NCBI RefSeq assembly: GCF_003337565.1
Contig: NZ_QPJL01000005.1
Location: 124,001 to 188,000, forward strand
Direction: 5' to 3'
Source of the DNA: Paracoccus lutimaris
Lineage (GTDB): Bacteria > Pseudomonadota > Alphaproteobacteria > Rhodobacterales > Rhodobacteraceae
DNA length: 64,000 nucleotides
A program made the translations under genes and the position numbers. The notes below the pieces were generated by a model. The model was not told the origin of the DNA. It ran no database searches and worked only from the letters and a program-made list of their open reading frames with translations. Shown here one piece after another: positions 13,467 to 25,887 of the stretch (the stretch's first letter is position 1; each line of letters starts with the position of its first letter).

Positions 13467-16250
13467 TCACTGAAAACTGCGCGTCTTGGCCGGCCGCCGT
13501 CCCAGCATATGGGCCAGAACCGCGTTCAGCACTGCCGCATCGGTCACCGCGGCACCCAGATCGGCGCCCACCCCGCCCTTGCCGCTGACCCGCGGCCCGT
13601 CGCCGGATCTGGACAGCCGGGACAGAAAGTCGCACCAGTCGCCATCATAGCCGCGCATGACGGCATCCGCCGGCTTGCCCGCCGAAAGCCGCCAGCACCG
13701 GAAGCGCGTCTCGGCGGGCGCCGGAGGATCGGCATGGATCGGCGGCGCCACCGCCCCGACCGAGGCGCAGGGACCAAAACCCATTGCCTGACGCGCGGCG
13801 ATGAAGGCGCGGGCCGGGAACCAGCCGGCACCGATCGACAGCAGATGCAGCGCGCGCCACTGCCCGTCGCCGCGCCCGGCAGCGCCCCTTTGCGCGGCTT
13901 CAAGGCCCAGCCCGGCCATGGCCTGCCACAGGCCGCCGCCCGGCTCGACCGCGCGGTCGCAGCCCGCCAGCCAGGCCGAGAACAGCGGCTGCGCGATGCC
14001 AAGGGCGCGGCGGTCGAGATAGCTGTTCAGCCGCTCGCCCGAGCCGGCGGCAAGGGCAAAGGCCAGCTCTGCCTCATAGAGCATGCGCACCATCAGCGAG
14101 CGCATCTCGTCGGCGCCGTAATGGACATGGACCGGATAGATGCCATTGACCTTGAGCGGCTCGATCATATGCGCCGCCAGCCGGGCGACCGGGTCGGCAT
14201 CGGTGGTCGGATCGTGAAAGATCAGCGCCAGACCGGGATATTCCTGCCAGCCCCGCGCGCTGGCCAGATGCAGCGCGGTCTCGCGGATGGCCTCGGGACC
14301 CAGCCCCAGCCGGCTTTCGCCCCGCAACCCGGTGCTTTCGGCATGGATCGTATGGCCGACCAGCGCCGAGCGCCGCACGTCGCGCAGCCGCGCATAGCCC
14401 GAGGGCAGCCCCGGCGCGTCGCCGGCGGTGGCGGCGGGCTGGCGCACCTGCAGACCGAAGGCCCCCGAGACCGGCGGCGCGAGCCGGATCACCCAGGCGT
14501 CAATGATGTTTTCGGCCCAATCGGCATAGGTCCAGCGCGCCAGGCCGCTGCAATTGCACCAGTTGCTCCAGCCCGGCCCCCAGGAATTCTGGATGATGAA
14601 GCCGTGATCGTCATAGCCAAGAATGGCAAAGGCATGGGCGCCGGTCCGCCCCGGCTTGAAGGGGATGGTCTCGATCGGTCCGCGCCGGCGAAACTCCCAG
14701 CCGGAATGGGTATGGGCGGAAACCACGATCGCCCGAGCCTCGTGCAGCGCGGCCTGATAATCGGTCAGAACCGGATGCAGCCGGTAGTAGGCGCCCAGCG
14801 TGATCTCGCGCGCCTGCTTGGCGGCCTCGATGGTCAGATGCCATTCGGGATCATAGCCGCTATAGGGGGCGGTCGCCTCCTGACAGACGCCGAAATGGAA
14901 AAAGCCCTTGATCGCACCACGCAGCGACGAGCCGCCGGGAAGATCGTCGACAAACTCGTCATGCTGGGTCGCCAGGCCGTAAAGCATGGCCGGACTGACG
15001 CTGGCGGGCGCCTCGTCGCCGCCGGGCAGCTCGCGCAGCTGGCGGTCGATGACCGCCGCCAGCGCAAAGCCCGTGCAGCTGAAACCGTCCTGCTGGACGC
15101 GCGCATTGCCCAGCCGTGACATGTCGGGCAGCATCTTGCCGGGCAGCGCGGCCAGCGACGGGCGGTAGAAGCGGTCGCGGCGGTCGAAACGGTCCGGCAT
15201 GGCGCGGTTCGACATCGCCAGCGCCGGCGGGACCGTGGCCGCCAGCTCGTCGCCATTGCCGTGCTGCATATGCAGGGGCATGCCGAAATAGGGGGGCGGG
15301 TCGGGCGATCCATGCGGCGCGGTGCCGCCATCGGGCGGGTCCGAGCCGTCCCCCATGCGCCGGAACAGCTCGGCCTCGGTCAAGGCGGCGGGCAGCAGCA
15401 CGGCATGGTTCAGACCGAATTTCAGGCAAGCATGCACGGCGATGACCTTGCCGCTGTCCAGCGCAACCACCGGAGAGCCGGAACTGCCGCCCAGCGTGGT
15501 TGCATCATGGCGCATGCCCATCACCGGATCATGCGCCTGCGACGGGTTGATCCGGCCGGGCGACACGCGCTTGCGGCCCAGTTCCGTCGCGCCAAACAGC
15601 GCCCCGAACCCGCTGCTGACCGGATCGGCCGGCGCCTGCATCGGATAGCCGATGACGCAGATCGCGGCCTCGGGCGCGGGCAAGGGATCGCCGCCGGCGG
15701 GCAGCGCAAGCTCCAGCGCGGGCCGGGTGCAATCCCCGGCCAGCCGCAACAGCGCCAGATCCAGCACGGCATGCGGCCATTCGACGGCCTCGATGTCGAT
15801 CACCTCATCCGGGCCGCCGGCCGTCTCGAAGCGCACCCGCGCCGGGCGATAGGCGGATTGCGGCGGTGTGGCGTCGGGCTGGGCATCGGGCGCGCAGAGG
15901 ATGCTCTCGCTTGACTTCAGCAGCGCGCGCAGCACATGGCGCGCCGTCACCACCCGGCGCGGATCCGTGCTGACCCGAAAACAGGTGGCGATGTTGTGCC
16001 AGCCCTGCTCCTCGACCTCGATCCGTCCGACCGAGCCCGCCATCCGCGCCACCGCATCCTGCATCCGCGAAAAGTCCTGACCGTCGAACCCCTTGGGCGG
16101 CGCGACATCGGAAAGCCGGTCATCCTCCAGCAGCAGCGCCGGCCGGTATTCAAGGATGATCCCACCCACCCGTCCCGGCGCCGACAGCGTCGAGCGATGC
16201 ATGGCCATCAGCGATCGCCAGTGGCGGATATCGGGCGCGGGTTCGGGCAC
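13467..16250 (-). CDS. Two-protease fusion protein (trypsin-like plus papain-like domains)
   Basis: The 927-residue protein joins two unrelated protease folds. Residues about 70-290 are a trypsin/V8-like serine protease with the triad visible as VTARHV (His105), LDLALL (Asp164) and GGSSGSP (Ser257). Residues about 360-590 are a papain-like C1A cysteine protease with VQQDGFSCTGFA (oxyanion Gln386/387, nucleophile Cys392), GAHAFAILGYDDHG (His539) and IIQNSWGPGW (Asn555). A C-terminal region of about 330 residues has an alpha/beta segment (LALIFHDPT, NGIYPVHVHYG) reminiscent of hydrolases but is not identified. There is no signal peptide. A GTG start at 16250 with AGAGG upstream is used. The gene is divergent from the multicopper oxidase operon across 150 bp. 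Substrates are unknown. Confidence 0.85.
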   Translation of the reverse strand: MPEPAPDIRHWRSLMAMHRSTLSAPGRVGGIILEYRPALLLEDDRLSDVAPPKGFDGQDFSRMQDAVARMAGSVGRIEVEEQGWHNIATCFRVSTDPRRVVTARHVLRALLKSSESILCAPDAQPDATPPQSAYRPARVRFETAGGPDEVIDIEAVEWPHAVLDLALLRLAGDCTRPALELALPAGGDPLPAPEAAICVIGYPMQAPADPVSSGFGALFGATELGRKRVSPGRINPSQAHDPVMGMRHDATTLGGSSGSPVVALDSGKVIAVHACLKFGLNHAVLLPAALTEAELFRRMGDGSDPPDGGTAPHGSPDPPPYFGMPLHMQHGNGDELAATVPPALAMSNRAMPDRFDRRDRFYRPSLAALPGKMLPDMSRLGNARVQQDGFSCTGFALAAVIDRQLRELPGGDEAPASVSPAMLYGLATQHDEFVDDLPGGSSLRGAIKGFFHFGVCQEATAPYSGYDPEWHLTIEAAKQAREITLGAYYRLHPVLTDYQAALHEARAIVVSAHTHSGWEFRRRGPIETIPFKPGRTGAHAFAILGYDDHGFIIQNSWGPGWSNWCNCSGLARWTYADWAENIIDAWVIRLAPPVSGAFGLQVRQPAATAGDAPGLPSGYARLRDVRRSALVGHTIHAESTGLRGESRLGLGPEAIRETALHLASARGWQEYPGLALIFHDPTTDADPVARLAAHMIEPLKVNGIYPVHVHYGADEMRSLMVRMLYEAELAFALAAGSGERLNSYLDRRALGIAQPLFSAWLAGCDRAVEPGGGLWQAMAGLGLEAAQRGAAGRGDGQWRALHLLSIGAGWFPARAFIAARQAMGFGPCASVGAVAPPIHADPPAPAETRFRCWRLSAGKPADAVMRGYDGDWCDFLSRLSRSGDGPRVSGKGGVGADLGAAVTDAAVLNAVLAHMLGRRPAKTRSFQ

Positions 16251-16400: not shown

Positions 16401-19400
16401 ATGCCGCGTCGGGGTTTGTTTGTTGTCGTGACGTTTCTTGGTGCCGCGGTCCTGGCGACGGCGTCGCCGGCATTGTCCAATGCGCAGCAGGACGATTTCG
16501 CACCCGCCTGCCGGGCCGTCAGCAACGATCTGCCAAAGGACGAGAAAGGCCGCGTGGTCTGCGCCGATATTGCCGCGCTGGAACAGACGCTGGTCTATAA
16601 CCGCTTCGGCTCGTTCAACCCCTTTGGCATGATCTTCGCGCTGAACCGCGACATCGCGCCATTGCCGCCGGCGCCGCAGGCCGATGGCGTCGTCGATCTG
16701 GACCTGACCGAGCCGCTGAGCGGCGCGCAATGCGGCGCGCTGACGGGCACCGAGACGCGCGGCGCCGACAGCGCGCTTTCAGCCGGGGACGTGCGGCTGC
16801 GCGACTGCAAGCGGCCGCGCCCGATGGTTTTGCGCGCCAATGTCGGCGATACGCTGGTCGTGCATGTCAGGAACCTGCTGACCCCTGCCACCCCGATACG
16901 GCAGGCCCCGGACTTCTCGGGCGATGTCTGCCAGCGCAAGACCCCGACCGCCGATCATGGCCGCGAAAGCGTGCAGCGCGAGCTGGCGCGCGGGGACGCC
17001 GCCCTGCGCCGCCATGCCGAGGTCGATTGCGACCCCGCGACCAGCCAGGACGCCAGCATCGATCCCGATGCGCCGAACTGGCCCAGCACACGGATGGTGA
17101 ATTTCGTGGTCCAGGGGCTGACTCCGCTGGCCATGCCCGGCACGAGCGCCCCCGACCCCGCCTGTTTCGGCACCGGGGCGGTGGCGCCGGACGCCGATTT
17201 CTATTGCCGCTACCGCATCGAGCAAGAGGGCACCTATTTCTTTGCCTCGCTGGCCGCGCCGGCCGGGGGCGAGGGCAATGGCGGCTCGCTGGTGCATGGC
17301 CTGTTCGGCGCGGTCATGGCCGAGCGGCGCGGCGCGCGCTGGTATCGCAGTCAGGTCAGCAGCGCGGCGCTGGATGCGGTCTGGCCGGCCGAAGGCGAGA
17401 TGCCGGACCGCATCCGTGCTGCCTCGCCCGATTACGAGGGCGTGGATGCGGCGGGCACGCCGATCCTGAACATGGCCCGGCCGCTGATCGACGCCGATGC
17501 CGATGCCAAGGCCGCGCAGGCGGCATTCGCGGATGCCAGGCTGCTTGAACTGGTCCATTCCGACCTGAACGCGATCATCTATTGCGACCCCAGCATGACC
17601 GGCGCCAATTGCACGCCGCAAACCGAGGAACAGAAACATGGCGGCATCACCACCGAGGCGCAATATGGCGCCTTCCGCGAATTCTCGGTGTTCTTCCATG
17701 ACGAGCTGAAGACGTTCTATACCAAGAATTTCCGCGAACTTGGCCAGCTTGGGCAGCTTGCCGGGGTCAAGGACGGGTTCGCGATCAATTACGGCGCCTC
17801 GGGGATGGGATCGCTTCTGCTGGCCAATCGCAAGGGCATCGGGCCGGCCGACGATTGCATGGAATGTCTTTACGAAGAGTTCTTCCTGACCTCATGGGCG
17901 AATGGCGATCCGGCGCTGCTGGAATGGTATCCGGACGATCCCTCGAACGTGCATCATTCCTATCTGAACGACCCGGTGGTGTTTCGCAACTTCCATGCCG
18001 GCCCCAAGGAAACCCATGTCTTCCACCTGCATGCCCATCAATGGTTCGCCGGCAACGACCCCAATCGCGGCTCGTATCTGGACAGCCAGACGGTCGCGCC
18101 GCAGCAGGGCTTTACCTATAACATCTATCACGGCGGCCAGCGCGGGCCGGATGGCAAGGGCAAGGGCGGCTGGTGGGACAGCCAGGGCTCGGGGAACCGC
18201 AACCGCACGGTGGGGGATTCGATCTTTCACTGCCATCTCTACCCGCATTTCGCGCAAGGCATGTGGGCGCTGTGGCGCGTCCATGACGTGCTCGAGGACG
18301 GAACCCGGCTGTTGCCGGACGGCCAGTCCCATGCCGGGCTTTCGACCGAATTCACCCCGGCCACGCTGCGCCCCGACCGGCGCGCGGGCAGCATCGACCG
18401 CCTGACCGGGTTGTGGCATGGCGAGCAGCAGGGGACGCCGATCCCGGCGCTGGTCCCCCTGCCCGGAGAGCCGCTGCCGCTGGCCCCGACCTATGCCAAG
18501 GCCGCCGATCTGACCGCGGACGGCACGGCGCTGAAACCCGAGGCGGCAACGCCGATGCCGGGCTATCCGTTCTATATCGCCGCCGAGCCGGGCCACCGCC
18601 CGCCGCAGGCACCGCTGGACATCGCCCGCAATCTGGGGGCGCCGGCTGCGAACAGCGATGCCGTGGACGATCGCGCCCCCGCAGCCGTCAGCGGTGCCTT
18701 TGCCGCGGCCGGGGAATGGCTGGATGGCGGCTTGAACCGGCATGTCATCACCACCGGCTCGCGGCGCGCATTCGGCATCGACCTGCCCAAAGCCGTCCTT
18801 GACAGCACCAAATTCGAGGCGCTGAGCGACGACAAGCAGGTCTTCCTGATGCGGCAGGTCATCGCCAAGGCCTTTGCGCTTGGCGATCTGAGCGGCCATC
18901 TGACCACATCCGTCATCACCCGGCTGGACCCCTATGGCGAACGGCTGGAACGCGCCGCCATGGGCTATCACCATAACGGCAAGCTCTATCGCCCCGATGC
19001 CGGGGCGGGCGATCTGCGGCTGCAACAGGCCGATGGCACCGAGGTCGCCGGCTTTGCCGAGGGCGGTTACGCGACCACGCTGGCCGGAACCCCGACACCT
19101 GCGCCCGACTCCGAAACCGCATCGGAACCCGCGCGCGAGGCGGTGTTCTACGTCAATGGCGCGGCGCCGCGCCCAGGCGCGCCCTTTGCCGATCCTTGCG
19201 GGCGCTGGCAGGACGATCCGGCGACCACGCCCGGCCCCGATCCGTTGACGCCATGGCTGGAAACGCCGCTGATCCGCGACGACCGCGTGGCCGGGTTCCG
19301 GCGCTATGAGGCCTCGGCGGTGCAGCTCGACATGATCGTGAACCGCGCCGGCTGGCATGACCCGCAGGCGCGCATCAATGTGCTGAGCTTTGACTCCGAC

Positions 19401-22400
19401 CGCTTCAAGACCGGGCCGGGGCTGATCTCGCCGCTGATCAGCGACAGCGAGGAGCCGTTCTTTTTCCGTGCGCTTTCGGGCGAATGCATCGAATTCCGCC
19501 ATACCAATGAACTGCCCAAGGAACTCGAGCTGGACGATTTTCAGGTCCGGACGCCGACCGACACCATCGGCCAGCATATCCATCTGGTGAAATTCGACGT
19601 CACCGCCTCGGACGGGTCGGGGAATGGCTGGAACTATGAGGACGGCACCTTCGCCCCCGACGAGATCGCCACCCGCATCTGCACCGAAAAGGGGGCAAAG
19701 GATGCGCGCTGCACGACGCCGGCCTATAAGGAACATCGCATCTGGCGCGAAAAGCGTAGCGAACATCCGGAATGGTTCCAGACCACGACCCAGCGCTGGT
19801 TCGCCGACCCGATCCTGTCGCTGGATGAAAACGGCGATGCCATCGACCGCACCATGCGCACCGTCTTCACCCATGACCATTTCGGCCCCAGCTCGATCCA
19901 GCAGCACGGCTTTTATGCCGCGCTGGTGATCGAGCCGCCGGCGCGCTACTCGGTCGATCTGGCGAAGCCCGCCATCTGCAACGACATGAAGGCCAAGGCA
20001 GCGGACACGCCGGCGCAAAACTGCGTCACCCCCCTGCCCAAGGCTCAGGCCCCGCACGCAGTCGCCTGGGGCAGCGATCTGTGGCAGGGCACGCGCAAGC
20101 TGATCCGCATCGCCGCCGAGGATCCCTATCACCCCGATTATCGCGAATTCGCCCTGTCCATCGCCGATTTCGCGCTGCTTTACGATCCGCGCGACCGCGA
20201 GGATCCGGCCGCCTTCGCCAGGGCCATGGCGGATACGACCGGCGCGGCCGCAACGCGGATCGGAGCGCTTGACGGCATGGCAAAGCTATATTGCGAGGCC
20301 CGCTATCGCCTGAGCCCCTTCAACATGCGCGATGTCTGCGGCACCGCGGAAAGCCGCGACCCGCGACGCGGCAGCTTCTTCTATCCGCTGCCGCCGCCGG
20401 CCTGGCTGGCGGGCGGCGCGCATCGCGACGACATGCACCACCTCAGCCATTACGCGGGCGATCTGCTGTCCCCGCCGGGCGAGGTCCGCGCGTTGCGCCG
20501 GCATCTCGTGAGCTATCGCCAGAGGGCGGCGGGGGGGGATGGCACCGGCGCGATGGCCAGGCCGGTTGCCGCGCCCGAGCGGCCCGAGTCGATCTCGGTC
20601 GATCATCACGACCCCTATCTGGTGAATTATCGCGGCGCGCCGATCCCGTTGCGCATCGCCGACAAGGATGGCGATGGGGTCCTGTCGGGGAATTGCGCGC
20701 CGATGGCGATGAACGCGCCGGGCGATCATGGCGACAGCGATCTGGTCACCGCGCTGGCCAAGGGCAGCTTCCAGCCCTGCTCGCGCAGCCATCAGATTGC
20801 CGGGGCCTGGGGCGACATGGCAGGGGCGCTGCATTCCGGCCTGCATGGCGACCCGGAAACACCGCTGCTCGAAGCCTATGAGGGCGAAAGGCTGGTCCTG
20901 CGGATGATCCAGGGCGCGCAGGAAGTCCAGCACACGTTCACGCTGACCGGCCAACCCTTCAAGCGCAATATCGATCAGGCCTTTGCGCAGGGCATGATGC
21001 CGCTGGACATGACGGGCGCGGCCTCGCTGCAAAACCTGTGCGAACAGCGCGCGGAACTGCGGCGCGCGCATCCGGGGAAATACATCGAATGGCGCGACAC
21101 CGCGCCCATGGACCGCGACACCTGGCCCGACAAGGATCATTGGCGGGCCTATGAGGCCGCGCTGGCGCAATGCGACAATATCGAAGGCTTCATGTTCGCG
21201 CAGGAAATCGGCATCTCGGAACATTTCGAGATGCAGGGCAGCCTGCGCGCCGACACCGCCGGCAGCATCGAGTCGGTCACCGGCGGCAATGTCACCTATG
21301 CCGCTGACGCATCTGACGGCCTGCCCGCGGATGTGCAGCGCGACTCGTCGGATTACCTTTATCACTTCGGCAGCGTGGACGCGCTGTGGAACGGCGCCTG
21401 GGGGTTGATCCGGATCTACAAGGACGGCGCCGCCCCCGACCCCAAGACGGTCGCGGCCTTCAATCCGGGCTGGACGGCCGCCGAGCGCGGCGCCGAGCAG
21501 AGGATCGACGCGCGCCTGCTGAGGCTGGACAGCAGCGCGGCCGAGACGGCAGGCTCGGCGGCACTTGCGGCCGAGACATTCTCGGGCACTGGCCGGACCT
21601 GCCCGATCCCGGCCGGGGACGGCCCCGAACAGCGCATCGTCGAAGCCGTCATCGTCGCGGTCGAGACCCGGCGCGTCTTTGACCCGCGCGGAACGGTCTA
21701 TGGCGCGGGGGTTTCCGACCCGGACGGGCTGATGCTGGCGCTGATGGCGCCGGACCAGCTGGGGGTTCCCGACATCTCGGATACGAATGCCTTCCGCGCG
21801 CTTTCGGCCGCGACGGTCATCGACCGGGTCCGCACCGCCTATGGCGACACGCAGCCCGAGCCCTTCGTGCTGCGCGTCCGCGCCGGGGATTGCCTGCGGC
21901 TGCGGGTGCTGAACCTGCTGGGCGAGACGGAGCGGGGCATGCGCGATGTGCTGGGTGACGCGCTCTTGCCAAAGATCGTGCCGCTGAATGCCGATCCGAT
22001 CCCGCATTTCGACGACGACCTGCACCGGATCGAATTGCAGCGCCTGCCCGACAGCGCGGCCCCTCACGGGCTGCGGCCCTCGACGGGGCTGGCGATCAGC
22101 TTCGGTCTGCCGGGGCTGGACCTGATCCGCACCGTCCCGGCGGGCTTTGGCTATAACCCCAAGGCCATCGCGGGCGGCCATGGCGGGGTCGAGCCGGGAC
22201 CGCTGCTGAGCAGCTATGCCGGACGCTCGCGCCTTGACCTGAAAGGCGACCGCAACGAGAAGGCCACGAAAATCGTCATGATCGCGACGCCCCTGCTGAA
22301 TGCCATGCTGCCCGAAATGCTCGACCGGCATTTCGGCGCGCGCAGCGATGGCGCGGCCCCGCGGGTCGATTTGCGGCTGGTGCCGCTTTTCGACGTCGGC

Positions 22401-23522
22401 CCCGGCGACGGCATCGCGCAGGTGCTCGATCAGGAATATGCGCTGAACATCACCGTCACCGGCAAGCCGCGGGTCAGGCTGCAGCGTGACCCGGCGGTGC
22501 TGGCGCCGGTGATCGAGGCGCTTTGCCGCGTGCAGGATTGTCCGGCCACGACCGGGCGGAACAGTGACGCCGCCCTTGACGAGCTGGCCGCCGATCTGGC
22601 GGCGCTGAGCCGGCTTGCGCTGCTGCAGGCGGTGGACAGGCGGACGCATTGGATCCCCTATGCCTTTGGCGCGGTCCCGGTCAAGCCGACCGCAGACGTG
22701 ATCTCGCAGGTGCCGCATGGTCTGTTTGGCGCCATCGACGTGGTGCCGGTGACCTGGGAACCCGCCGAACCCGAGGGCAAGACCGGCCTCGCCTGCGACA
22801 AGGAGCCGGTCGAAAACTACCGGCGCTGCTCGGCTTACCATGTTCCGGGACGCGGCGCGGGTCAGGGCATGCGCTATACCGCCAAGGCCAGCCCCGACGC
22901 GGTGGAAACCATGCGCATCCGCGAATTCGTGCTGTTCTATCAGGATGGGCTGAACCATTGGGACGACGCCATGAAGCTGGATACGGTCTGGGCCGATACC
23001 GGCCGCATCGCCACCGACCCCGATCTGGGTCCGGTGCGCGCGGTTCCCGACTGCGCGGTCTGCGACGACAGCTATGATCGCGGCGAGGCCGCCGTCAGCC
23101 AGCATTCGCCCGCCTTCTACCGGATGCTGCGCGGCGGAAATCCCGACAGCGGCATCGAGGCCAATTCCAACCTGAACGCCCATGTCTTCGCCAGTGACTA
23201 TGTCCTCTCGGCTGCTGGCCAGCCCCGGCTTCCGGCCTGCGCGGGCGAACAGATCGTCATTCGCGTGGTCCATCCCGGCGGGCGGGCGCGACAGCGCTCC
23301 TTTGCCATGAACGGCTATTCCTATGACGAGCTGTTCCCCGGCTTCGGCTTTCCGCGCTCGGCGCTGCTGGCGCCGGGTAAGGCGATCACCGCCTGGCTGC
23401 GCCCCGAGGCAAAGCCCGGCACCACGGTCTGGCATGACGGGCCGACGCATCTGCGCGCCGCCGGCACCTGGGGGCTGATCGATGTGGCCAAACCCGGAGA
23501 CCCGCAATGCGCCGTGCCCTGA
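16401..23522 (+). CDS. Very large secreted multicopper oxidase (possible Mn(II) oxidase)
   Basis: The 2,373-residue protein starts with a Sec signal (RRGLFVVVTFLGAAVL, cleavage near ASPALSNA-QQ). Many cupredoxin-like segments follow. All ligands of a functional multicopper oxidase are visible but in permuted order. THVFHLHAHQW gives His539, 542, 544 and 546. FHCHLYPHFAQGM gives His610, Cys611, His612, His616 and Met621 (type 1 and type 3 copper). GQHIHLVKF gives His1059 and His1061, and THDHFGPSSIQQHG gives His1158, His1160 and His1169. The last third repeats the N-terminal layout (EFSVFFHDEL near residue 428, EFVLFYQDGL near 2175) but has lost the ligands. Size and the HDHFGP motif recall MnxG/MofA/McoA manganese oxidases; this function is inferred. 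It leads a four-gene operon. Confidence 0.85.
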   Translation: MPRRGLFVVVTFLGAAVLATASPALSNAQQDDFAPACRAVSNDLPKDEKGRVVCADIAALEQTLVYNRFGSFNPFGMIFALNRDIAPLPPAPQADGVVDLDLTEPLSGAQCGALTGTETRGADSALSAGDVRLRDCKRPRPMVLRANVGDTLVVHVRNLLTPATPIRQAPDFSGDVCQRKTPTADHGRESVQRELARGDAALRRHAEVDCDPATSQDASIDPDAPNWPSTRMVNFVVQGLTPLAMPGTSAPDPACFGTGAVAPDADFYCRYRIEQEGTYFFASLAAPAGGEGNGGSLVHGLFGAVMAERRGARWYRSQVSSAALDAVWPAEGEMPDRIRAASPDYEGVDAAGTPILNMARPLIDADADAKAAQAAFADARLLELVHSDLNAIIYCDPSMTGANCTPQTEEQKHGGITTEAQYGAFREFSVFFHDELKTFYTKNFRELGQLGQLAGVKDGFAINYGASGMGSLLLANRKGIGPADDCMECLYEEFFLTSWANGDPALLEWYPDDPSNVHHSYLNDPVVFRNFHAGPKETHVFHLHAHQWFAGNDPNRGSYLDSQTVAPQQGFTYNIYHGGQRGPDGKGKGGWWDSQGSGNRNRTVGDSIFHCHLYPHFAQGMWALWRVHDVLEDGTRLLPDGQSHAGLSTEFTPATLRPDRRAGSIDRLTGLWHGEQQGTPIPALVPLPGEPLPLAPTYAKAADLTADGTALKPEAATPMPGYPFYIAAEPGHRPPQAPLDIARNLGAPAANSDAVDDRAPAAVSGAFAAAGEWLDGGLNRHVITTGSRRAFGIDLPKAVLDSTKFEALSDDKQVFLMRQVIAKAFALGDLSGHLTTSVITRLDPYGERLERAAMGYHHNGKLYRPDAGAGDLRLQQADGTEVAGFAEGGYATTLAGTPTPAPDSETASEPAREAVFYVNGAAPRPGAPFADPCGRWQDDPATTPGPDPLTPWLETPLIRDDRVAGFRRYEASAVQLDMIVNRAGWHDPQARINVLSFDSDRFKTGPGLISPLISDSEEPFFFRALSGECIEFRHTNELPKELELDDFQVRTPTDTIGQHIHLVKFDVTASDGSGNGWNYEDGTFAPDEIATRICTEKGAKDARCTTPAYKEHRIWREKRSEHPEWFQTTTQRWFADPILSLDENGDAIDRTMRTVFTHDHFGPSSIQQHGFYAALVIEPPARYSVDLAKPAICNDMKAKAADTPAQNCVTPLPKAQAPHAVAWGSDLWQGTRKLIRIAAEDPYHPDYREFALSIADFALLYDPRDREDPAAFARAMADTTGAAATRIGALDGMAKLYCEARYRLSPFNMRDVCGTAESRDPRRGSFFYPLPPPAWLAGGAHRDDMHHLSHYAGDLLSPPGEVRALRRHLVSYRQRAAGGDGTGAMARPVAAPERPESISVDHHDPYLVNYRGAPIPLRIADKDGDGVLSGNCAPMAMNAPGDHGDSDLVTALAKGSFQPCSRSHQIAGAWGDMAGALHSGLHGDPETPLLEAYEGERLVLRMIQGAQEVQHTFTLTGQPFKRNIDQAFAQGMMPLDMTGAASLQNLCEQRAELRRAHPGKYIEWRDTAPMDRDTWPDKDHWRAYEAALAQCDNIEGFMFAQEIGISEHFEMQGSLRADTAGSIESVTGGNVTYAADASDGLPADVQRDSSDYLYHFGSVDALWNGAWGLIRIYKDGAAPDPKTVAAFNPGWTAAERGAEQRIDARLLRLDSSAAETAGSAALAAETFSGTGRTCPIPAGDGPEQRIVEAVIVAVETRRVFDPRGTVYGAGVSDPDGLMLALMAPDQLGVPDISDTNAFRALSAATVIDRVRTAYGDTQPEPFVLRVRAGDCLRLRVLNLLGETERGMRDVLGDALLPKIVPLNADPIPHFDDDLHRIELQRLPDSAAPHGLRPSTGLAISFGLPGLDLIRTVPAGFGYNPKAIAGGHGGVEPGPLLSSYAGRSRLDLKGDRNEKATKIVMIATPLLNAMLPEMLDRHFGARSDGAAPRVDLRLVPLFDVGPGDGIAQVLDQEYALNITVTGKPRVRLQRDPAVLAPVIEALCRVQDCPATTGRNSDAALDELAADLAALSRLALLQAVDRRTHWIPYAFGAVPVKPTADVISQVPHGLFGAIDVVPVTWEPAEPEGKTGLACDKEPVENYRRCSAYHVPGRGAGQGMRYTAKASPDAVETMRIREFVLFYQDGLNHWDDAMKLDTVWADTGRIATDPDLGPVRAVPDCAVCDDSYDRGEAAVSQHSPAFYRMLRGGNPDSGIEANSNLNAHVFASDYVLSAAGQPRLPACAGEQIVIRVVHPGGRARQRSFAMNGYSYDELFPGFGFPRSALLAPGKAITAWLRPEAKPGTTVWHDGPTHLRAAGTWGLIDVAKPGDPQCAVP

Positions 23523-25294
23523 CCCTGGCGGCGGCACTTGCGGCACTGACTGCCCCGCCCTGCGCCGCCGACGAGCTGAAACCGGCGCTGACCGCCACGA
23601 CCGAATTCCTGTCGCTGGACGGCCAGCCGGTCCCGAGCATCGCGCCGCATATGCCGGTGCAGATCCGCGTCAGCATCGCCAACGGTCTTGGCGGCGGCAC
23701 CCCTGCGGGGCTGAAGCTTTTCGGCTGGCTCAGGCGCATCGACGCGGACGACCTGCCCTGCGGGCAGGCGGCCGAGGCCTTCATGCGCACCGGGCGCCTG
23801 CCGAATGGCACGATGTTTCTGAACGATCCGGTGATCGGCGTGGTGACCGAGGATGGCGCATTTGCCGTCAGCGACCCGGATTTCTCGCTGGCAAGCGCCA
23901 ATATCCTGGGTGCGGTGACGCTGGAATCGCGCGTCGCGGCGCTGCGCGGCGATGCGTTCGGGCGGCGCTTCCTGCTGGTTTTGCCCGATGCGGGGCAGGT
24001 GCGGATGATCGGCGCCGCTGGGCATGATCTGGGCGCGATCGACGGGCTGGAGCACCCGCGCGATGTCAGCGGTGCCGGGAATGGCGCGGTGATCGTTCTG
24101 GAGGGGAGCGGCGCGCTGCTGCATGTCGCGGCGGATGGCGCGCGGCGCAGGATTGCCGAGGGGGTTGGCGCGATCCGCCCCTCGGGCAATGCGGATTGGC
24201 TGGTCGCATTGCAGCCGGAAACGGGGGCGGATAGCGGCCGCGCGGTGCTGATCGACACTGGCAAGGGGGTGCAGAGCCAGGAATTCGCCGCGCCCGACCT
24301 GCGCGATGCCACCATTCTTGAACAGGGCGGCACCCCCTTCGGCATTGCCCTGCTGACCGGCGCGGGCATCGCGATCCAGTATCTGGACGCGCCCGAACTC
24401 GTCCAGCTTATCCCCCTGCCGGCACGGGTCGCGCGCCTTGCCGCCGCGCCGGGCGGCCGGGTGGCGCTGGCCTGGTCGCCCCGCGGCGGACCGGCGCATG
24501 TGATCGATGTGGCGCGGGGGCGGCTCGTGCGCTCGGTCAAGGCCAACTCCCCCATTTCTGAGGTCGCCTTCTCGCAGCGCTCGGCCTTTCTGATGCTTGC
24601 CAGCCAGACCCATGTCGGCGCGCTTGGTCTGGATGCCATCGCCCGGGGCGAGGCCGCCGATTTCCGCGAGATCCTGATCGGCAGCGCCGCACAGGCACCC
24701 CGGGCGGGCCGGCAGTTGCTGGCGCCGCTCTGGCCGCTGGACGGGATGCTGGCGGTCCATGCAGAGAGCTATCAGGGCTATCGGATCATGGAAAGCTCGA
24801 CCATGGGCGATGCGCCGGCGATGACCGCGACACCGCTGCGCGGCGGCATTCCGCGGCTGGTCGCCACGCTTGACCGCAGCTTTCGCGAAGGCCCCGAGGG
24901 GGTGTTTCAGACCGTCGCCAGCCTGCCCGGTCCCGGCCGGTTCGAGCTGGTGGCGACGACCGGGCTTGGCGCACTGAGCTTTTGCACCGAACTGCCGGTG
25001 GCCCTGCCGCAAGGCCCCGAGGCCGCCCCCGTCGGACGGCTGGCCATCCGCCCCGAGGGCGAGGCGATCCGGCTGGCGCTGACCGATGCCGGCGGCCATC
25101 CGCGCGCGGGGCTGGTCGGGCGCGTCACCTTCAGCGCGCTGACCGGCAGCTGGCGCGCGCATGCCGATCTGCGGACTGGGGCGGATGGGGTCTCGGATCT
25201 GGCTTTCGCCCTGCCGCCGCTGGATGCGGTGCTGATCCAGATCGATGCCGGCAACGAGGTCTTTGCGCCGCTGCTCTGGGAGAGGGATCCATGA
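23507..25294 (+). CDS. Secreted propeller-like protein of the multicopper oxidase operon
   Basis: The 595-residue protein has a signal peptide (RRALTLAAALAALTAPPCAA). Its N-terminal part up to about residue 100 looks like a beta-sandwich (PHMPVQIRVSIANG, GRLPNGTMFLND). Regularly spaced strand-turn units between about 130 and 450, such as FLLVLPDAGQVRMIG, AVIVLEGSGALLHVA and RVALAWSPRGGPAHVID, suggest a seven- or eight-bladed propeller. A C-terminal sandwich (about 500-590) closes the protein. No CxxCH heme motif or clear metal site is seen. It overlaps the oxidase gene by 16 bases and the SCO gene by 4, so it is translationally coupled and probably works with the oxidase, perhaps as a scaffold or secretion partner. 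I do not recognise a named family. Confidence 0.75.
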   Translation: MRRALTLAAALAALTAPPCAADELKPALTATTEFLSLDGQPVPSIAPHMPVQIRVSIANGLGGGTPAGLKLFGWLRRIDADDLPCGQAAEAFMRTGRLPNGTMFLNDPVIGVVTEDGAFAVSDPDFSLASANILGAVTLESRVAALRGDAFGRRFLLVLPDAGQVRMIGAAGHDLGAIDGLEHPRDVSGAGNGAVIVLEGSGALLHVAADGARRRIAEGVGAIRPSGNADWLVALQPETGADSGRAVLIDTGKGVQSQEFAAPDLRDATILEQGGTPFGIALLTGAGIAIQYLDAPELVQLIPLPARVARLAAAPGGRVALAWSPRGGPAHVIDVARGRLVRSVKANSPISEVAFSQRSAFLMLASQTHVGALGLDAIARGEAADFREILIGSAAQAPRAGRQLLAPLWPLDGMLAVHAESYQGYRIMESSTMGDAPAMTATPLRGGIPRLVATLDRSFREGPEGVFQTVASLPGPGRFELVATTGLGALSFCTELPVALPQGPEAAPVGRLAIRPEGEAIRLALTDAGGHPRAGLVGRVTFSALTGSWRAHADLRTGADGVSDLAFALPPLDAVLIQIDAGNEVFAPLLWERDP

Positions 25295-25887
25295 ACCCGA
25301 CCGTCACCGCCCTGCTGATCCTTGCACTGGGCGCCCTGCCCGCCCTGTCCCATGACGGCGCGCACAAGCCCGCGCCCCGCGCCGCCCGCGTCATCAGCGG
25401 CGAGGAGCCGCTGGCGATCCCGAATTTCCCGGTGGCGCTGGCGGGCGGCACGCGCGGGGGCTTGCGCGATCTGCTGCCCGAGACGGCGCCGGTCATCATC
25501 GGCTTTACCTATACCAATTGCCAGTCGCTTTGCGGCATCACCAATGCGACGCTCTTGTGGGTCGACGGGGCGCTGGCCGAGGACGGGCTGGACGGCGCGC
25601 GCATCGTCACCATCTCGATCGACCCCGTGCATGACACGCCCGAGCAACTGGACCTGACCCGGCACGAGATCGGCGCCAGCGCGCGCTGGCTCTGGGTCAC
25701 CGGCGGGTCGCAGGGCACGCAGCCGCTTCTGGACGCGCTGCGCTTTCCGCCCGGCCCGGTCGAGGATCACGACCCGGTCTATCTGGTCGGCCGGCCCTGC
25801 GCCGGCAGCTTTACCCGCATCGTCGGCCTGCCCGACCCGGATGCGCTTTATGCCCTTGCCGCGAACCTGCCGGAATGCGCGGGCTAA
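25291..25887 (+). CDS. SCO1/SenC-type copper chaperone
   Basis: The 198-residue protein has an N-terminal hydrophobic signal (VTALLILALGALPALS) and a thioredoxin-like domain with the copper-binding C-x3-C motif in YTNCQSLC. VTISIDPVHDTPEQL is the family-typical second strand, and the VEDHDPVYLVG segment supplies the conserved His. SCO proteins deliver copper to, or reduce thiols of, periplasmic copper enzymes, most often cytochrome oxidase CuA. Here it is encoded between the giant multicopper oxidase and a cytochrome c with 4-bp and 13-bp overlaps. Its likely client is therefore that oxidase, not a terminal respiratory oxidase. Confidence 0.9.
   Translation: MNPTVTALLILALGALPALSHDGAHKPAPRAARVISGEEPLAIPNFPVALAGGTRGGLRDLLPETAPVIIGFTYTNCQSLCGITNATLLWVDGALAEDGLDGARIVTISIDPVHDTPEQLDLTRHEIGASARWLWVTGGSQGTQPLLDALRFPPGPVEDHDPVYLVGRPCAGSFTRIVGLPDPDALYALAANLPECAG

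Follow-up and report, generated by a model that had tools for sequence, protein, structure and literature searches.

A giant MnxG-type multicopper oxidase encoded in an mnxG-type gene set of Paracoccus lutimaris

Manganese oxidases of the multicopper oxidase (MCO) type are described, in the accessible part of the open PubMed Central (PMC) literature that we searched, from Bacillus, Pseudomonas, Leptothrix and Pedomicrobium. According to the available excerpts of the papers cited here, Bacillus Mnx needs MnxE and MnxF (PMC5622069), and the mnxG operon of Pseudomonas putida GB-1 comprises mnxG, the gene of a YVTN propeller, two SCO1/SenC genes, the gene of a substrate-binding/cytochrome c protein and that of SurA (PMC11409713; the propeller-fold protein, SCO and SurA are also named in PMC8218464). 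In the same strain, the gene of the manganese oxidase McoA is followed by a SCO1/SenC gene (PMC11409713), and the mofABC genes of Leptothrix discophora combine an MCO with a cytochrome c gene, joined in the Rubrivivax version by a copper chaperone (PMC8218464). Here, we analyzed a stretch of 64,000 nucleotides (nt) from Paracoccus lutimaris (contig NZ_QPJL01000005.1, positions 124,001 to 188,000; hereafter the window), which carries the gene of a giant oxidase in front of three partner genes and beside a divergent protease gene (Table 1).

Table 1 Features of the oxidase locus, in positions of the window (aa, amino acids)
Feature	Position	Strand	Remark
Divergent protein of 927 aa, trypsin-like domain, weak papain-like match	13467..16250	-	adjoins the oxidase in some clade members only
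Giant MnxG-type multicopper oxidase, 2,373 aa	16401..23522	+	open frame, NCBIfam match, MnxG collinearity, structure matches
Signal peptide, residues 1-28	16401..16484	+	judged by eye
H539-x2-H542-x-H544: type 1 His and two trinuclear-site His	18015..18032	+	roles by homology
H610-C611-H612-x3-H616-x4-M621: type 1 Cys/His/Met and two trinuclear-site His	18228..18263	+	roles by homology
H1059-x-H1061: trinuclear-site pair	19575..19583	+	role by homology
H1158-x-H1160 (HDHFGP): trinuclear-site pair	19872..19880	+	role by homology
Expansion between residues 1511 and 1607	20934..21218	+	segment lengths across 34 sequences
Insertion 1926-2074 relative to Bacillus-type MnxG	22176..22622	+	profile alignment; model
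Propeller-type partner, 595 aa	23507..25294	+	overlaps oxidase by 16 nt; signal peptide by eye
SCO1/SenC copper chaperone, 198 aa, CQSLC motif	25291..25887	+	overlaps propeller gene by 4 nt
c-type cytochrome (CAGCH) and start of periplasmic-binding-protein domain, 258 aa	25875..26651	+	overlaps SCO gene by 13 nt

We read the gene as encoding an MnxG-type MCO that is likely exported, stands in an mnxG-type gene set and is predicted to oxidize Mn(II) to Mn(III)/(IV) oxide, a reading to which we assign a probability of roughly 0.7 (0.72). The oxidase itself is a well-supported member of the MnxG kind, which is already known as a kind. An earlier reading of the window, made from its letters without database searches (the sequence-only reading), had placed it in the manganese-oxidase group and was right in substance, as the NCBIfam MnxG match, the collinearity with MnxG, the structure matches and the gene set all support this placement. 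The NCBIfam MnxG model (NF041487) matched at E 3.8e-152, and a sequence search of the PDB returned a single match, the MnxG of entry 9bxa, titled ‘Structure of Mnx H340A complex from Bacillus sp. PL-12’. When a profile of 16 giant sequences was compared with one of 13 Bacillus-type MnxG sequences, positions 54-2367 of the former aligned with 4-1207 of the latter in local mode (E 2e-111) and 51-2373 with 1-1212 in global mode (E 4e-177), and in the global alignment 371 of the 1,194 aligned residues were identical, with all 12 copper ligands paired one-to-one. The two proteins are collinear from end to end in the structure models as well, the modelled halves of the oxidase matching residues 1-598 and 645-1215 of 9bxa. 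Ceruloplasmin is not the closest fold, since 9bxa was the best match for both the N-terminal half (E 2.5e-18 versus 4.4e-4 for ceruloplasmin) and the C-terminal half (8.8e-18 versus 5.9e-8).

Three-domain laccase-like MCOs such as MoxA, CumA and CueO are about 500 aa long, with the HxH pairs first and the HCH motif last, and the oxidase falls outside this class by its size and its motif order. Pfam gave weak laccase-type matches only (16.5 and 10.3 bits, below the cut-off), as might be expected if an ordinary laccase-like oxidase had been enlarged by unrelated domains and had acquired its motif order by chance, but this explanation is contradicted by the collinearity with MnxG and by the matches of both halves to 9bxa, and we consider it highly improbable.

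Each copper motif was found at the residues given by the sequence-only reading, and the full set of 12 ligands stands in the MnxG order. All 12 are invariant in 79 of 79 aligned close sequences (the window and 78 of the 120 relatives listed, picked for diversity and limited by size) and likewise throughout a wider set of 34 sequences from four groups, window again included, which excludes chance as the source of the motifs. The reversed order of the motifs had been reported as unusual; the order is as described, but it is the normal one for MnxG, and because 9bxa and Priestia MnxG have an identical order, the ‘permutation’ is a family trait and we rejected a novel permutation. Similarly, the HDHFGP motif that had been taken to point to the manganese-oxidase group is present, but HDH at this place is common to all 34 sequences compared. 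H616 was aligned to a histidine that is alanine in 9bxa, while Priestia MnxG and the window oxidase keep this type 1 histidine, and we take the alanine to be the H340A of the 9bxa title. Neither a second HCH-type motif nor a second complete ligand set was found in the oxidase; extra copper-binding domains in its second half, also considered, are unsupported by sequence, and the C-terminal half aligns with the last part of MnxG. In front of the first copper motif lie a CxxC motif and two glutamates (residues 486-493; 17856-17879 in the window), of which C486 and C489 are conserved in 33 and E492 and E493 in all of the 34 sequences. This segment is a candidate metal-entry site.

Bacillus MnxG shares with the window oxidase the motif order, the ligands and the collinear body, but has 1,227 aa compared with 2,373 aa here. 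The extra length consists mostly of insertions, 27 of them of at least 12 residues relative to Bacillus-type MnxG, and the largest, 1926-2074, was modelled as alpha/beta with a predicted local distance difference test (pLDDT) mostly above 70. Two regions are much longer in the clade of the window (15 rows) than in the three other groups, with overlapping ranges for single members: the segment 1511-1607 (96 residues in the window; median 101 versus 30, 34 and 30) and the segment 1840-2090 (median 250 versus 124, 119 and 72). The segments around the copper motifs are, across the 34 sequences, constant or nearly constant in length, with 12 (598-610), 16 (610-626) and 20 (1059-1079) residues. Because no second complete ligand set was found, we regard the additional length as a predicted surface elaboration of the same body rather than as extra copper sites.

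The partner genes resemble those of the Pseudomonas-type mnxG operon, in which propeller, SCO and cytochrome c genes follow the oxidase. Consecutive genes among the four overlap, and the gene after the cytochrome is convergent. The propeller-type protein has no Pfam match of its own; its family aligns (E 1.1e-36) with oxidase-adjoining proteins of the relatives L085, L066 and L086, of which the L066 protein matches a YNCE-like beta-propeller. The SCO partner matches PF02630 (SCO1/SenC, E 1.4e-9), and the cytochrome partner has two matches that stay below the Pfam cut-offs, one to Peripla_BP_6 (E 1.2e-5) and a weak one to cbb3-type cytochrome c (E 0.007). As far as the GB-1 operon is described in the excerpts, the window shares with it the oxidase, the YVTN-type propeller, the SCO and the cytochrome c/binding-protein gene in the same order, but differs in having one SCO gene, no SurA in the operon, a shorter cytochrome protein and the divergent protease. 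The cytochrome protein has a cut-down binding-protein part: it measures 258 aa here, compared with 321-436 aa for six relatives among the alphaproteobacteria and 469-534 aa for three others. McoA and MofA were compared, from the same excerpts, by gene content alone: the former shares the SCO1/SenC gene after the oxidase and the latter the cytochrome c gene accompanying an MCO, whereas mofB (Mip-like) has no counterpart among the four genes of the window.

The order oxidase-propeller-SCO-cytochrome was recovered by tblastn in 14 of 18 alphaproteobacterial loci, and the other four end too soon. A profile search covered 36 loci (34 proteobacterial, Priestia and Haladaptatus; the short contigs L003, L004 and L014 were left out) and found all three partners in 25 of the 34 proteobacterial loci, with seven ending too soon (L016, L028, L029, L030, L051, L067 and L084) and two exceptions; these counts include copies (L015/L017, L002/L030, L008/L029 and L028/L051), and part of the searched loci also served to build the partner profiles. 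In loci outside the propeller profile (among others L050, L066, L084, L085, L086, L087, L092 and L095), propeller matches ranged from E 8e-59 to 1e-46, with a stronger one in L066 (1.4e-65). None of the three partners was found by this search in the Priestia and Haladaptatus loci. L085 and L086, which hold the MnxG-like oxidases of the genomes G970 (2,183 bits) and G829 (best piece 1,156 bits), each have a propeller, two SCO genes, a cytochrome protein and a further gene between. The same gene set was also seen in a Nitrosomonas-like genome (L066, 8225-18872; nearest named protein from Nitrosomonas sp.), with an extra open reading frame of 193 aa between oxidase and propeller. The Roseivivax propeller and SCO genes (L047, 15155-17541) and the Jannaschia oxidase (L009, 10001-17122) are split between frames or stops, by either frameshifts or sequencing errors.

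Family and gene set together point to Mn(II) as the probable substrate. By homology, the type 1 copper would take electrons from Mn(II) and pass them to the three-copper site, where oxygen would be reduced to water, and the product would be Mn(III)/(IV) oxide. The oxidase would be exported and loaded with copper by the SCO protein, while the cytochrome and the propeller protein are expected to take part, outside the cytoplasm, in assembly or electron handling. To our knowledge, the exact jobs of these last two proteins are unsettled in Pseudomonas too.

Among 125 Paracoccus genomes, the oxidase was matched in 22, in one of these (G298) over the C-terminal part only, after a 23rd genome (G280, 38 matching residues) had been dropped; the propeller was matched in exactly these 22. 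The narrow MnxG model (E ≤ 0.001) gave matches in 3 of the 190 genomes drawn from the class, in 4 of 398 from the phylum and in 8 of 369 from the class of the Nitrosomonas-like genome G402; none reaches the cut-off and some are small proteins, without which the giant forms number 2 of 190, 3 of 398 and 6 of 369, the first two counts including the window’s own. A search of 72,556 plasmid records gave 30 matches, which include Bacillota and archaea. Most of the listed relatives are named ‘hypothetical protein’, and 5 of 120 are called ‘manganese oxidase’ by the Joint Genome Institute.

In a tree of 42 rows (quick search, root placed for drawing, support by the Shimodaira–Hasegawa-like approximate likelihood ratio test (SH-aLRT) only, with warnings for a long Haladaptatus branch and uneven composition), four groups were each supported at 100%: seven Bacillota MnxGs, three near-equivalog proteins, a group of 20 rows and one of nine. 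The window falls in the 20-row group, which holds alphaproteobacteria only, as far as its rows are named, while the nine-row group unites Pseudomonas sp. ATCC 13867 and Burkholderiales-type rows with the alphaproteobacteria Roseomonas and Ancylobacter. Indioceanicola adjoins the MnxG-like rows, outside the clade of the window. The window oxidase has features of its own, namely its length, the pair of expansions, a trimmed operon and a protease neighbour that only part of the clade shares. The clade seems, within the accessible part of the literature searched, to be a group without a tested enzyme.

Several observations weigh against manganese oxidation by the window’s enzyme. Its score of 508 bits is far below the equivalog cut-off of NF041487 (3100), so that it does not count as MnxG in the narrow sense; the Bacillus-type MnxG of Priestia fails the same cut-off, at 333 bits. 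The clade is separate from the near-MnxG group, and the substrate may therefore have shifted. In the structure model the ligand loops have a pLDDT below 50, too low to show the copper-site geometry. Neither MnxE nor MnxF, both present in the Bacillus complex, adjoins the oxidase, whose neighbours are the protease and propeller genes, and SurA and the second SCO are absent from the window’s operon (the rest of the genome was not searched). A sigma-54 promoter is unsupported, as sites matching the consensus were not in excess (240 versus 275 expected). The two exceptional loci are L087 (genome G709), whose propeller gene lies on the opposite strand and points away from the oxidase, the 12 kb taken giving no match to SCO or cytochrome, and L095, which gave no cytochrome match in the profile search. 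Finally, in the available text of PMC4861733 the marine Paracoccus NP_8HO is one of three isolates without a gene annotated mnxG, and a negative manganese culture screen is reported alongside it; since the oxidase occurs in only 22 of 125 Paracoccus genomes, this result does not decide. On the other side, the excerpt of PMC3772008 includes a single Paracoccus in a set of 24 soil isolates highly active in Mn(II) oxidation. Organism-level support is slight and mixed. No paper on a giant MCO as manganese oxidase in Paracoccus was found in the accessible open PMC literature.

The separate, fully supported clade, its two concentrated expansions, the low equivalog score and the reduced operon would also suit an enzyme with the same MnxG-type fold and copper sites that oxidizes another substrate, for example Fe(II), Cu(I) or phenolics. 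The constant or nearly constant length of the copper-motif segments, the invariance of all ligands and partner genes that are those of mnxG argue for Mn(II) instead, and we regard another substrate as unlikely, albeit the most serious of the alternatives.

The gene is intact. Its frame, which ends at 23522, is open back to 16296 (first ATG) without an internal stop; GGAGG directly precedes the ATG at 16401, which yields the full 2,373 residues, and the GC content of the three codon positions (0.69/0.50/0.83) follows the coding-frame pattern of the adjoining genes. The public gene call for the same protein starts 24 residues downstream, by which the signal peptide would be lost. The source genome holds one copy of the oxidase and two additional ordinary-sized MCOs (L088 and L089; open frames of 518 and 653 aa); a search of this genome for haem peroxidases gave no match, and the control likewise matched nowhere. 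An operon that looks intact but is silent or decaying, and no longer works in the source strain, could account for the patchy spread in Paracoccus, for the shorter cytochrome gene and for the relative G298, which keeps only a C-terminal part of the oxidase. The open frame, the complete ligands, the retained overlapping partners and the coding-type codon bias speak against decay, which we judge very unlikely. In G298 (L099, G298:C2:138000-154000), propeller, SCO and cytochrome are kept, the oxidase is matched over residues 1747-2362 and the long frames of the 16 kb contain no HCH motif; this oxidase is a truncated copy.

The divergent protein upstream of the oxidase is without an evident signal peptide. 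Protease matches (E ≤ 0.001) were obtained in 26 of 125 Paracoccus genomes and span most of the protein in 12, in all of which the gene adjoins the oxidase divergently. The other 14 matches are partial: 13 lie in genomes without a substantial oxidase match, including G280, where the match is 5 kb from the 38-residue oxidase scrap, and the last is a short trypsin-type match beside the oxidase of G294. As a full-length match is found in 12 and missing in 10 of the 22 oxidase-bearing Paracoccus genomes, the protease qualifies only in part as a fixed component of the system. By tblastn it was present at all 12 Rhodobacterales loci that include upstream sequence (three cut by the locus end, two pairs being copies from one species) and at none of five other alphaproteobacterial loci, two of them near-copies. 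In the same place, P. yeei has a 300-aa serine protease and Shinella (L091) a trypsin-like and an S8 protease.

A wider proposal, which we put forward only tentatively, is that Alphaproteobacteria own a separate manganese-oxidase clade, the longest of the groups compared and with its own folded insertions, in which many Rhodobacterales would have a trypsin/papain protease devoted to processing or regulating the oxidase and which might move between species on plasmids. If true, Mn(II) oxidation in Paracoccus and its relatives would be accounted for without haem peroxidases. Comparison of the clade with MnxG would reveal which loops can be expanded without loss of the copper sites. Bacterial manganese oxidation shapes manganese minerals and trace-metal cycles, and if the clade works as predicted, this trait would become readable from the genomes of Paracoccus and its relatives.
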